NCBI GenBank assembly: GCA_015039465.1
Contig: MU130495.1
Coordinates: forward strand, 8,600-66,569
DNA length: 57,970 bases
Direction of reading: 5' to 3'
From: Phlegmacium glaucopus
Taxonomy: Eukaryota; Basidiomycota; Agaricomycetes; Agaricales; Cortinariaceae
Part shown: piece after piece, positions 8,860 through 57,970 of the stretch
Position numbering within the stretch: the first letter of the stretch is position 1
How the letters are laid out: every line of letters begins with the position of its first letter
The notes under the pieces: model-generated
Databases searched by the model: none
Seen by the model: the letters and a program-made list of their open reading frames with translations, nothing else
Told to the model about the DNA's origin: nothing
Program-made: the position numbers and the translations under genes

Positions 8860-11800
8860 TCAACAAATAAAAATTGGATCCATACACAAGAGATTATTCG
8901 ATGCAGTCTGTACAGCCTCCTCACCCAGTAATTCATAATTGACATTGTCAACATGCAAAAAGTGTTTGACATGTCTCATTACATGAGAGCCTTTGAAAAG
9001 ATTTTCGAGTTCAAAAATCTTTTCAATTGCTTGCTTGACAGAGACATCACAAGTTGATTGCTGATAAATTTGAGCAGCTCTTTCAAAAGAGTCTTTGGTA
9101 CTTGGTGATTCTTGATGAAGAAAGAAAGACAAGTGGCCAATAATAGCTGCAACTAATAGTACAAGTGAATATTGAGAGTATGCAAAAGGGTTGAATCAGA
9201 TGCTTGCCAATTCCACAGTATGTAGCATCTTTTAAGTTGAATTTGGTAGATAGGCTGGAAAGCTTGAAAAAATTGGAAGATGAAATTTAGCCACTTTTCT
9301 GCCAGTGTATTGTCAAAAGCAACACTCACAATGGGTGACATAATTTTGGAGACAGAAGCCTGTACATTGAAATTAATAAAAACTGGATAAAAAAATAAGT
9401 ACAGAGATGGAAATGAGGCAAAAGAAAATCACCAAATGATATTTTATTATAGAGATTAAAAAATAAAGTTAAGAGTAATGATACTTGCCATCTATAAGCA
9501 AAGGTATAAGTAGGTGAGCAGAGCAAAAGGCAATCAGAAATTATTGCACATACTTGCTGTTGAGAAATGTAAGTCATGGAGTAATTGGTAAATAACATTA
9601 CATGTTCAACATACATACTGTCCAAAAGATATGCCAATCAGTAAGCAGAAATGAAGATATGATTGATGCACCTACATACTGTCCAAATAGATTATAGAGG
9701 GTGATAGGATAATTGAGATTTCTCTGTGCTTGTACTTACATGCTGTCAAAAAATTAAGACCAGTTTGAGCCAGAGCAAGATGGTCTCTCACTTACCAACT
9801 GTCAAAAGAGTAAGTTAGAGTCAAGGCAGATCAAGATGGTCTTGCACTTACTCCCTGTCAAAAGAGCAAGCTTGAGCAAGGCAGATCAAGATGGTCTTGC
9901 ACTTACCAACTGTCAAAAGAGCAAGCTAGAATCAAGGCAGATCAAGACAGTCTTACACTTACCAACTGTCAAAAGAGTAAGCTAGAGTAAAGGCAGATCA
10001 AGATGGTCTCACACTTACATCCTGTCAAAAGAGTAAGCCAGAGTCAAGGCAATTCAAGATGGTCTTGCACATACCACCTGTTAAAATAATAAGTTAGAGT
10101 CAATGTAGATCAAGATAGTCTTGCACTTACCTGCTGTCACAAGAGTAAGCTAGAGTAAAGGCAGATCAAGATGGTCTTGCACATACCAACTGTCAAAAGT
10201 AAGCTAGAGTCAATGTAGATCAAGATGGTCTTGCACTTACATCCTGTCAAAGAGTAAGCTAGGGTTGGGGCAGATCAAGATGGTCTTACACTTACCATCT
10301 GTCAACAGAGTAAGCTAGAGCAGATCAAGATGGTTGTGCACTTACATACTGTCAAAAGAGTAAGCTAGAGTAAAGGCAGAGCAAGATGGTCTTGCACTTA
10401 CAGACTGTCAAAAGAGTAAGCTAGAGTAAAGGCAGATCAAGATGGTCTTGCACTTACATCCTGTCAAAAGAGTAAGCTAGACTCAATGCAGATCAAGGTG
10501 GTCCTGTGCTTACATACTGTCAAAAGAGTAAGCTAGAGTAAAGGCAGATCAAGGATGGTCTTGCACTTACATCCTGTTAAAAGAGTAAGCTACAGTCAAG
10601 GGAAATAAAAGTGATCTTTCACTTACATCCTGTCAAAAGAGTAAGCTTGAGTCAAGGCAGATCAAGATGGTCTTGTACTTACTCCCTGTCAAAAGAGTAA
10701 GCTAGAGTCAAGGCAGATTGATAGTCTTGCACTTACATACTGTCAAAAGAGTAAGGCTAGAGTCAAGGTAGATCAAGGTGGTCTTGCACTTACATACTGT
10801 CAAAAGAGTAAGCTAGAGTCAAGGCAGATCAAAATGATCTTGCACTTACCTGCTGTCAAAAGATTAAGCCAGAGTCAAGGCAGATGAAGATGGTCCTGCA
10901 CATACCAACTGTCAAAAGAGTAAGGCAGAGAAGGCAGATTAAGATGGTCTTGCACTTACCCGCTGTCAAAAGAGTAAGATAGAGTCAGTGCAGATCAAGA
11001 TGGTCTTGCACTTACATTCTGTCAGAAGAGTAAGCTAGACTCAATGCAGATCAAGGTGGTCTTGCACTTACATACTGTCAAAAGAGTAAGCTAGAGTAAA
11101 GGCAGATCAAGGATGGTCTTGCACTTACATCCTGTTAAAAGAGTAAGCCACAGTCAAGGGAAATAAAAATGATCTTTCACTTACATACTGTCAAAAGAGT
11201 AAGCTAGAGTCCAGGCAGATCAAGATGGTCTTGTACTTACTCCCTGTCAAAAGAGTAAGCTAGAGCAAGGCAGATCAAGATGGTCTTGCACTTACCCCCT
11301 GTGAAAAGAGTAAGCCAGGGTCAAGGCAGATCAAGATGATTTTGCACTTACAGACTATCAAAAGAGTAAGCCAGGTTCAAGGCAGATCAAGATGATTTTG
11401 CACTTACAGACTATCAAAAGAATAAGCTAGAGTCAAGGCAGATCAAGATGGTCTTGCACTTACAGACTATTGAAAGAGTAAGGCAGAGTCAAGGCAGATC
11501 AAAATGGTCTTGCACTTACAATCTGTTAAAATTTCAGGTAACAAGTAATATAACATAATGATCACTCTTCACACACATACTGTCATAATATATGTTAGTC
11601 CAATGTGTTCAGCACTAAATGCTCAAGATAACACTCTAGTGACTCTACACAATCAATCAGCCATCAATTCCTTCTTTAGTCTTATTAAATACATACCACA
11701 ACTTGTGGAAAATATCTCAGAACAATTGCCATGAAATATGCCCAATTTCCTTCACTCTTCTTAAAATATCTCAATAGAGCTGATTCCTTCTCATTCAAAA

Positions 11801-12923
11801 GTCTAGGAAATATGTTAATGTGGGAATTTGAAAATACCATGGTTCCCAACCTTTTAATCCCATATTTAAAACACACCTCAACATTGTTTTGCTGTGTTGA
11901 AAGAAAGAGCTGTTGTAATTCTTCACTAGACAGCACAGCTGTCGTTTTTTCAATCAAATCTTTACAATCACCTCCAGGTTCATGCATCTCTACAACACAA
12001 TTAGCCAAATAGTTGTTAAGAAGTATAACACTTACTTCGAAATACAACATATGCCTTTGGTGGATATTTAAACTCTTCAAACCGTTCATGAATACTCTGT
12101 TGAAAATCAGCCCAAGCTTTTTGCGGAGCTTGTTGCATTGCCTCAGATCTGCTGTTACCTTCCTTGATGAGTTGCTTAATTTTAGCAACATCAAGGGAGT
12201 CAGTCTTGGTCCACAAAACAATCACTGGTACTTCACAGGATTATCCATCTGATCCCTTCACAGTAACATATTGATAAGATGACACGTACCAAGCCCTGTC
12301 CCACATTCATTGAAAAACTTCTTTTCTGCTGCCGTGATTGGTCGGTCATCACTCGTTGGAATGCAGTACCTACCCGATTCATTTTTTTCTGTTAAGAAAT
12401 TCGTTCTCGAAAGGCGAGTACTAACACACCAAATTGCATGAAGCTGCTCATCCACTTTTTTTGCCTTCGAACGCCCCTTAATGAACTCCTGTACCATCCT
12501 CAACTCCTGAGCACCACCGGCTTCAAAACCATGGGAATCGTGAAAGATAAAACCAGGGTTGCTCTCAAATATCATTTGATTCTGGATGTCATGCTTTCCA
12601 CGCTGCGGTGTGAGGATATTAATTGAACTATAACCCAATACTACAGGAACTGCCTACCCCCATCGATGGATCAAGGGCCGAGGACTCGATCTGAGATCAT
12701 GAGAATGGATGTCAGTATCTGGTATGAACCTTCACCATATACTTACCGTTTCACCATTCGGACTGAGGATCGTAGGCTCTCCTGTAGCGTTGCAGAGTCT
12801 TCGCAGGATTGTTGTCTTGCCTGCGTTGGCTCGCCCGATCACGAGGATACGGAATCGAGTAAACTTTGCTTGCAGTCTCCGGATCTGCTCAGCAGTGAGT
12901 TGGGGTTTCGATGAGGTAGACAT
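8860..12923 (-). CDS. G-domain GTPase gene with a microexon array
   Basis: Exons: 12923-12747, 12690-12658, 12602-12430, 12369-12290, 12230-12036, 11989-11697, then 38 three-base exons (separate entry), then 9359-9330 and 9262-8860. All introns are GT-AG apart from one GC-AG, and phases match. G-domain motifs are complete: P-loop GRANAGKT (residues 30-37), G3 DSHG (92-95), G4 TKTD (162-165). This is the AIG1/septin-like G-domain type (Walker A GxANAGKT) expanded in mushroom fungi. The C-terminal exon encodes a hydrophobic helix (LVLLVAAIIG) and a helical tail, so membrane anchoring is likely. I start at MSTSSKP; an upstream in-frame ATG at 13016 exists. One oddity: the tail is linked only if a run of four T (9184-9187 complement) is read as three, so there is a frameshift or base error late in the gene. 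Function is unknown; relatives are suspected of recognition or stress roles. Confidence 0.8.
9489..11696 (-). repeat. Array of 38 three-nt exons and 39 introns
   Basis: On the minus strand, units of about 56 bp each hold a donor (mostly GTAAGTGC), a branch-like CTAGCTTAC, an acceptor (TTTTGACAG) and exactly three bases before the next donor. Triplets with first plus-strand base: TAT 11577, ATT 11520, TCT 11464, TCT 11408, TCT 11352, GGG 11296, GGA 11241, TAT 11185, GAT 11129, TAT 11072, AAT 11016, CGG 10960, TTG 10906, CAG 10850, TAT 10794, TAT 10737, GGA 10683, GAT 10627, GAT 10571, TAT 10514, GAT 10458, TCT 10402, TAT 10346, ATG 10296, GAT 10241, TTG 10187, CAG 10131, GTG 10075, GAT 10019, TTG 9963, TTG 9907, GGA 9852, TTG 9796, CAT 9740, TAT 9676, TAT 9615, CAA 9554, ATG 9489. 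None is a stop. Inner introns are 47-62 bp (22 of 37 are 53 bp). Flanking exons end and begin in phase 0. Whether all are spliced is unproven. Confidence 0.9.
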
Positions 12924-56534: not shown

Positions 56535-57600
56535 ATTTATCTCAGGTCTTGTCTGCTGTCTTTTCTCTGGATGGTAGGTATATTATGTCTGTATGTAATG
56601 ATAACATTGTAAGAGTCTGGAATGCAGCCACAGGGGAGTGTGAAGCAGAGCCGAAAGGTCATTCAGGCTGGGTAAATTCTGCTGTCTTCTCTCCTGATGG
56701 TACACATGTTGTGTCTGCATCTTAACATAATACTGCAAGGATCTGGAATACAGTCACAGGGGGCTGTATAGCAGAGTTGAAAGGACATTCAAAACAGGTC
56801 AATTCTGCTATCTTCTCTCCTGATGGTCTATACATTGTGTCTGTATCTGCTGATCACACTGCACAGATCTGGAATGCAGCCACAGGAAAGTGTGAAGCAG
56901 AGCTGAAAGGACATTCAGACCAAGTCAATTCTGCTGTCTTCTCTTCTAACAGTATGCATATTGTGTCTGCATCTGCTGATCACACTGCATGTATCTGGAA
57001 TACAGCCACAGGAGAGTGTGAAGCAGAGCTGAAAGGACATTTAAAGCAGGTCAATTCTGCTGCCTTCTCTCCTGATGATATGCATATTGTATCTGCATCT
57101 GATGATGACACTGCATTGATCTGGAATACAGTAACAGGAGAGTGTGAAGCAGAGCTGAAAGGACATTCTTCTTGGGTCAGATCTGCTGTCTTCTCTCCTG
57201 ATGGTATGCATATTGTGTCTGTATCTGCTGATCACACTGCATGTATCTGGAATACAGCCACAAGAGAGTGTGTATCAAGGCTAAAAGGACATTCAGACTG
57301 GGTCATTTCTGCTGTCTTCTCTCCTGATGGTCTGCATATTGTGTCTGCATCTGCTGATCACACTGCATGGATCTGGAATACAGCCACAGGAGAGTGTGAA
57401 GCAGAGCTGAAAGGACATTTAGACTGGGTCATTTCTAGTGTTTTCTCTCCTGATAGTCAGCATATTGTGTATGCATCTACTGATCACACTGCACAGATCT
57501 GGAATACAGACACAGGAGAGTGTGAAGCAGAGCTGAAAGGACATTCAGGATGGATCAATTCTGCTATTTTCTCTCCTGATGGCATGCATATTGTGGAGGA
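56535..57600 (+). repeat. Nine WD40 repeats of 126 bp
   Basis: Units of 42 codons with the pattern GHS-WV-SAVFSPDG-HIVSASADHTA-IWNTATGECEAELK. Units 3 to 8 (56781-57536) are open and very alike at the DNA level. Unit 2 has TAA at 56723-56725. Unit 9 stops after SPDGMHIVE at about 57597, where unrelated repeat sequence begins. High nucleotide similarity between units is typical of WD40 tracts kept alike by recombination in mushroom NLRs. Confidence 0.85.
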
Positions 57601-57633: not shown

Positions 57634-57750
57634 ACCGGACTCCACTGGACTTCCACCGGACTCCACTGGACTTCCACCGGACTCCACTGGACTTCCACCG
57701 GACTCCACTGGACTTCCACCGGACTCCACTGGACTTCCACCGGACTCCAG
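57634..57750. repeat. 21-bp minisatellite
   Basis: About five units of ACCGGACTCCACTGGACTTC plus C (21 bp, seven codons), followed by degenerate inverted-looking copies (AGAGTCTGGTGAGAGTCCGG) to 57795. It directly follows the truncated last WD40 unit, so it marks the breakpoint of the NLR gene. Confidence 0.85.
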
Positions 57751-57814: not shown

Positions 57815-57970
57815 TATCCCCCCCTAACCTAAGAACACACTACTGCGCAGACACAAAATATCCCCATCCCTAAATATTAATCCTAAGCCCTAAGCCTAAG
57901 CCCTAAATCTAAATATAACCCTAAGCCTAACCTCTAAATCTAAATATAACCCTAAATTCCATCAAAAGTC
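57815..57970. repeat. Degenerate telomere-like CCCTAA repeats
   Basis: Interspersed CCCTAA, CCTAA, CCCTAAA and AACCCTAAG words with variants (TAAATCTAAATATAACCCTAA occurs twice, about 57903 and 57938). The basidiomycete telomere unit is TTAGGG; this is not a clean array but a worn or subtelomeric-like variant running to the window edge. Confidence 0.6.

Follow-up and report, generated by a model that had tools for sequence, protein, structure and literature searches.

Tandem arrays of candidate one-codon exons between near-identical introns in a family of GTPase genes of Phlegmacium glaucopus

Results

The window gene and its array

The window, meaning the whole stretch of DNA that was analysed, comprises 57,970 nucleotides of contig MU130495.1 of Phlegmacium glaucopus. 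On its minus strand, positions 12923-8860 were read as one gene made of six GTPase exons, an array of short units and three C-terminal exons, the exon borders being placed manually by comparison with homologues. The features of the gene are as follows.

12747..12923, minus strand: exon 1, with the start ATG and the P-loop GRANAGKTT, hand-spliced against homologues P0001 and P0002
12658..12690, minus strand: exon 2, hand-spliced
12430..12602, minus strand: exon 3, hand-spliced
12290..12369, minus strand: exon 4, hand-spliced
12036..12224, minus strand: exon 5 (VIVLWTKTD), hand-spliced
11697..11989, minus strand: exon 6, ending ...YFPQVV (...CAA GTT GTG) in phase 0
9360..11696, minus strand: the array, read as a leading 117-nt intron, 38 putative one-codon exons, 37 inner introns and a trailing intron at 9488-9360
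11577..11579, minus strand: first putative one-codon exon, TAT
9489..9491, minus strand: last putative one-codon exon, ATG, followed by the GC donor GCAAGT of the trailing intron
9330..9359, minus strand: first C-terminal exon, ASVSKIMSPI, phase 0, beginning GCT TCT GTC
9208..9262, minus strand: second C-terminal exon, LSSLSTKFNLKDATYCGI, with a GC donor; placed by alignment to P0006, P0178 and P0180, its exact last base being putative
8860..9152, minus strand: last exon, (V)AAIIGHLSFFL...DPIFIC and stop

The triplets of the array are, in order, TAT ATT TCT TCT TCT GGG GGA TAT GAT TAT AAT CGG TTG CAG TAT TAT GGA GAT GAT (1-19) and TAT GAT TCT TAT ATG GAT TTG CAG GTG GAT TTG TTG GGA TTG CAT TAT TAT CAA ATG (20-38). 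The sequence-only reading of this window had counted 38 spacers of exactly three bases between an AG and the next donor, as well as 15 of 37 inner introns that depart from a 53-nt mode within a range of 47-62 nt, and these counts proved exact. Thirty-seven spacers precede GT and the last, ATG, precedes GC; the last inner intron is the 62-nt one. The exons flanking the array end at 11697 and start at 9359, both in phase 0, which also agrees with that reading. Three-base constancy in a single array is weak evidence when taken alone; the strong evidence, to which that reading had no access, comes from the avoidance of stops, the hypervariability of the triplets, the conservation of the splice sites and the recurrence in other genes. 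The gene would encode a GTPase in which a variable segment precedes a C-terminal helical domain, and each of the window triplets would be included in the mRNA.

When the 315-residue GTPase part was scanned against Pfam, with rows up to E 1, the best match was MMR_HSR1 (E 9.5e-5); nSTAND_NTPase5 matched weakly (E 0.068), and no row for NACHT or NB-ARC was returned. A sequence search of the PDB produced no match at E <= 0.001. The structure model of homologue P0020, built from 23 sequences, has a mean pLDDT of 80 and values below 50 at residues 308-336, which lie in the insert. In fold comparison the immunity-related GTPases (IRG) came out best but with low TM and high rmsd, and the predicted fold has no more than its layout in common with IRG proteins (e.g., Irga6) and dynamin-like GTPases.

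The arrays recur across a GTPase gene family

The genome (60.5 Mb in 259 contigs) was searched with the junction pattern CTTTTGACAG NNN GTAAGTGCAAGA, allowing up to three mismatches. This gave 1,421 matches, compared to 26 for the reversed control, and 1,161 of the 1,421 fall inside the 42 regions that we read. A profile parse of these regions resolved 1,318 introns, 878 of them exactly 53 nt long, with a maximum of 64 introns per region. Arrays of at least five triplets were present in 40 of the 42 regions and hold 1,246 triplets in total; C237:851000 and C3:15800, with one intron each and no triplets, were left out of the triplet counts. In 25 regions the upstream exon end was matched at 22 or more of 28 letters, and it translates as YFPQ[IVL]V in most of them; the remaining regions mostly begin within the array. 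The downstream exon start was matched at 27 or more of 34 letters in 35 regions, and GTPase or C-terminal matches adjoin many of the arrays. The one-codon array is a real, gene-family-wide architecture of about 40 related GTPase genes. Among the matches listed, copies of the 53-nt family lie in the array regions read, apart from six that adjoin GTPase-family matches.

The consensus of the 53-nt intron has a donor near GTAAGT and an A in CTTAC, the putative branch site, 12 bases before the acceptor. No stable secondary structure of the intron was detected beyond that of shuffles (z 0.58 and -0.28); the predicted fold of the consensus, itself no stronger than in shuffles, allows pairing between the donor GTAAGT and the GCTTAC of the branch-site stretch in the same intron. 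The C3:63688 array is glycine-rich (GGA, GCA, CAT and CCA), with an intron starting GTGAGTGCAAAACC seven times and clear unit duplications. A search of viral contigs for relatives returned one pattern match, and no relative was confirmed there.

The triplets behave as codons beside putative splice sites

Forty-three of the 64 possible kinds occur among the 1,246 triplets. Two of these triplets are stop codons, both TAG, compared to 111.3 ± 7.6 expected when each codon position was shuffled within its array; when each triplet was counted once per array, stops made up 2 of 489 against 38.0 ± 4.6. Reverse complements of stops were not avoided (30 against 32.6 ± 4.9), which ties the avoidance to the sense strand. 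Triplet-internal GT was depleted as well (GTN 31 against 128.6, NGT 33 against 96.2), and triplets containing AG showed no depletion. Avoidance of GT without avoidance of AG is the pattern to be expected beside donors that work, as they would here.

Conservation of the splice sites was assessed by a control anchored on intron cores only, which makes no use of the splice sites themselves. This control replaced an ungapped leave-one-out test (GT 959 and AG 946 of 1,059; G1 0.943, below several interior columns), which was rejected as confounded by indels. Of 711 anchored junctions, 704 have AG, 694 have GT and a further 11 have GC, and the triplet positions reach 1.5-1.9 bits of variability compared to at most 0.9 for the flanking bases.

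In the automatic parse, the spacer was 3 nt at 1,246 of 1,265 near junctions. The 19 junctions of other length compare with 23.9 changed triplets expected at the intron length-change rate, a rate that is a lower bound (Poisson P 0.19). An AG-NNN-GT reading still exists at 12 of the 19, which leaves seven and brings the three-base reading to 1,258 of 1,265; the P for seven or fewer against the same 23.9 is 5e-5. Three-base constancy was rejected as proof by itself in view of the result on the raw parse, and it became stronger after curation. Three arrays hold a stop, two in this first family (a TAG each) and one in a second family described below (TGA), and three contain an exon of a different length (4 nt in C220:189000, 4 nt in C128:359000 and 2 nt in C220:4500). 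Because of these, some array copies may be decayed or may use skipping.

A second intron family occupies the same position

In a gene on C223, from a P0009-like GTPase subfamily, 23 triplets lie between introns of 73 nt at the same gene position as the first-family array. The difference per site in this array is 0.009 for introns and 0.656 for triplets. No similarity between the 73-nt and 53-nt families was found outside donor and acceptor beyond that of shuffles (local score 9.0, with 24% of shuffles as high). Two further genes of the 73-nt family were read besides that on C223, and the genes read hold 68 triplets. A scan with the 73-nt pattern gave 183 matches compared to 43 for the control. 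Among the matches listed, which come from at least seven contigs (C223, C144, C164 in two places, C201, C203, C34 and C249), 96 junctions with perfect 28-nt flanks comprise 26 triplet kinds and include one stop, where 12.1 were expected. G was the third base in none of these 96 junctions, and in 2 of the 68 triplets read directly.

Homologous proteins carry a variable insert at the array position

P0178 (295 residues, on a contig of 1,373 nt) and P0180 (285 residues, 955 nt) are environmental sequences from other species. Both run from the GTPase end (YFPHL and YFPNV) through a variable stretch (e.g., WREMEMEWVTMMEWWEEEKEEWEEEWEKWEHH) to the C-terminal domain (NLKEATYCTIVAAIIGHLSF). The variable segment of about 45 residues sits at the array position, and both proteins continue across positions at which introns interrupt the window gene. 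Contigs of these lengths, given the residues that they encode, are too short to contain an unspliced array as well. By eye, the same layout with unrelated inserts was seen in the environmental P0020, P0086, P0123 and P0167, in P0044 from Laccaria and in P0080 from Pisolithus. The environmental records, read here as proteins, may be transcript assemblies.

Other records end at the array. P0001 and P0004, both NCBI models from P. glaucopus, and the environmental P0003 end within a few residues of YFP[NQH][IL]V, as would happen if translation ran on into the first intron of the array, and both the array and the C-terminal domain are absent from P0001 and P0004. Such early ends may be due to slow or conditional splicing, or they may be annotation artefacts. 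A further NCBI model from P. glaucopus, P0006, contains KIEEEEKYDWEYSLREY, which matches the C237:124400 array with some units omitted; the order in the array is K I E E E (D) E K Y D W E Y (R) S L R E Y, and the bracketed units are absent from P0006. The second part of P0006 joins YFPQIV directly to DSISKIMSP with no array between them. P0006 appears to be a fusion of two neighbouring genes, and we rejected it as proof of splicing for its chimeric look.

The models that leave out the array, P0001 and P0004, and the direct join in P0006 would fit a non-coding minisatellite within one large intron, whose splice-like motifs would be relics of an intron that was duplicated, with nothing from 11696-9360 entering the mRNA. 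We regard this explanation as very improbable, as it has to contend with strand-specific stop avoidance, GT avoidance, splice-site invariance and three-base constancy, as well as with the variable insert that homologues on short contigs carry. Because the triplets avoid stops, it is unlikely that 11696-9360 is always removed from the window gene as one intron. A plain satellite, which is ruled out by stop avoidance, splice-site invariance and recurrence, had already been discounted by the sequence-only reading in favour of a run of one-codon exons. That proposal is supported by the sense-strand stop avoidance and the near-invariant AG and GT/GC, and it is backed further by recurrence in 40 arrays, by the second intron family and by the variable insert in relatives' proteins.

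Triplets are hypervariable between near-identical introns

With one-codon exons as the working interpretation, the triplets were compared with the introns around them. Intron columns reach at most 0.96 bits of variability, and most are far lower, compared to the 1.5-1.9 bits of the triplet positions. The 589 units that have a 53-nt intron on either side were compared in pairs. Where two units from different arrays had at most one difference in the 106 flanking intron bases, their triplets differed in 95% of 200 pairs, compared to 94% for random pairs; pairs with such near-identical flanks within an array differed in 75% of 76 cases. The saturation of triplets between identical introns in the C223 and C220:189000 arrays, detailed below, is more extreme than selection and gene conversion normally give. 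Derived intron variants are shared by 23 blocks, in which the differences were 0.13 per site in triplets and 0.04 in introns, an excess of about threefold, with 17 non-synonymous changes and no synonymous ones, figures drawn from blocks that are not independent, as 17 of the 23 come from one array.

Simple tandem duplication followed by slow mutation was rejected as the source of the codon diversity, for neighbouring triplets show no more than a weak excess of identity. They are identical in 139 of 1,191 cases compared to 115 ± 9.5 expected, in 37 arrays, three more with 5-7 triplets having also been left out.

The third base is restricted in both intron families. In the first, T was found in 520 of the 1,246 triplets, G in 486, A in 239 and C in one; in the second, A or T makes up 94 of the 96 listed junctions. 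Selection on residues does not account for this restriction. Loss of CpG, with C standing before GT, could be the source of the missing C, but not of the scarce G in the second family.

These observations bear on an explanation that keeps the same splicing and has a dedicated or strongly biased process randomise three exon bases, or write new triplets as units are added, in place of selection on ordinary mutations. Several of them are in its favour: the young C223 array combines 17 identical introns out of 22 with 23 triplets of 15 kinds, five introns in C220:189000 (265 bases) recur unchanged later in the array while three of the four triplets between them differ and one is shared, neighbouring triplets come close to independent draws, and the third-base alphabet is specific to each family (A/T in the 73-nt introns, almost no C in the 53-nt ones). 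Blocks of clear common ancestry, however, mostly keep their triplets, the excess of change being only that of about threefold, and we know of no enzyme or template that acts on three bases of every 56. We judge such a process unlikely, though still a candidate beside diversifying selection on the codons.

Identical introns around diverse, old-looking codons, and two different intron families at one gene position, might also result from introner-like insertion, in which an older hypervariable exon, contiguous at first, took up near-identical introns between its codons or had older introns replaced by them. The contiguous inserts in the proteins from short contigs are compatible with this origin. 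Each insertion would nevertheless have had to land exactly three bases from the last one and in phase 0, and the exact 53-nt copies, among the matches listed, are in or beside arrays and not in other genes. The third-base alphabet tracks the intron family, and for this reason triplets and introns seem to have descended together. Taking both sides into account, we give introner-like insertion a low probability.

Discussion

The data are best explained, in our view, if the hypervariable triplets are one-codon exons that are joined in frame into a variable segment, with diversifying selection on the codons, homogenised introns and a role of the segment as a recognition surface; we consider this combination likely. 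The spliceosome would join the one-codon exons in frame to give a variable segment between the GTPase domain and the C-terminal helical domain. Each intron would be removed by intron definition, probably from 5' to 3'. Each step of such a scheme would lengthen the upstream exon by three bases, so that no tiny exon need be recognised as an exon, and donors near GTAAGT, the CTTAC A and the 53-nt size suit intron definition. Any unit could presumably be skipped with the frame kept.

In the same proposal, the codons would be under diversifying selection, and the neutral introns would be homogenised by concerted evolution through exchange within and between arrays. Whole codons could be added, removed or swapped by such exchange without cost to the frame, because crossovers would fall in introns. 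With the variable segment as its specificity surface, the GTPase may act in intracellular recognition or allorecognition, a suggestion made by analogy with fungal NLR repeats as they are described in PMC4986451.

As outlined there, fungal NLR repeats of high internal conservation (HET-D/HET-E WD, TPR and ANK types) undergo concerted evolution and have a few hypervariable codons under diversifying selection (PMC4986451). The GTPase arrays resemble the NLR repeats so described in their near-identical repeats, in their hypervariable codons and in belonging to expanded fungal gene families, and their triplets are hypervariable within units whose intron part is conserved. They differ in what is repeated: in the NLR genes of that account the repeat is protein, in which a few codons vary, whereas in the GTPase arrays the repeat is intron and the variable codon is the sole coding part. 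Protein repeats more than 85% identical across at least 100 residues, a mark of the NLR class, are accordingly not what the arrays contain; with at most 64 introns per parsed region, no array encodes 100 residues. A further difference from the NLRs is that the Pfam rows for the GTPase part include neither of their nucleotide-binding domains, NACHT or NB-ARC.

The introner-like elements (ILEs) of fungi are portrayed in PMC4457414 as near-identical spliceosomal introns multiplied within one genome in unrelated genes. The array introns are like these in being near-identical, predicted to be spliced and present in high copy in one genome. Unlike the ILEs so portrayed (PMC4457414), they stand in tandem, three bases apart, and among the matches listed they are in or beside one gene family.

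Many very short exons, in multiples of three and skippable in frame, are also known from the micro-exon genes of schistosomes and from the microexons of animals and plants. Compared to the GTPase arrays, with their dozens of putative one-codon exons, the exons concerned are longer, occur in smaller numbers per gene and lie between unlike introns, and no run of dozens of one-codon exons is known among them. A full-text literature search, whose hits dealt with ABCA4 exon skipping and with parasite antigens, found by title and abstract no gene in which one-codon exons follow one another in a run, within a coverage that leaves out most subscription journals and preprints. Pending transcripts, we regard the architecture of one-codon exon arrays as categorically new.

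If transcripts confirm it, the smallest coding unit, one codon, would be its own exon dozens of times running, and the spliceosome would be working at a limit, with exons of 3 nt alternating with introns of 53 nt as many as about 60 times in a single gene. The arrays would also amount to a natural experiment on intron multiplication, and would suggest a genomic way to vary a protein surface one residue at a time while the frame stays intact. A bolder version, which we put forward as rather doubtful, is that of a codon bank: more than 1,400 one-codon exons, spread over 40-50 GTPase genes and set in intron cassettes that are nearly identical, would have evolved at least twice with different introns, the birth of each cassette would give a fresh codon, and receptors would be rewritten residue by residue through recombination and possibly also through cassette skipping. 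Because at least two public P. glaucopus models stop at the array, other fungal genomes may hide such arrays; the homologues from Laccaria, Pisolithus and environmental samples have their variable inserts at the array position.

Repeats of other kinds lie elsewhere in the window. A WD-repeat gene at 56552-57595 on the plus strand has 126-bp units in 8.3 copies with 83% matches, of the high-internal-conservation kind, and its frame holds one internal stop (VVSAS*HNTARIW), so that it may be decayed or interrupted. Near the window end, a 21-bp unit is repeated perfectly in tandem, in 5.5 copies (57634-57749), and is followed by degenerate CCCTAA-like repeats (57868-57957).
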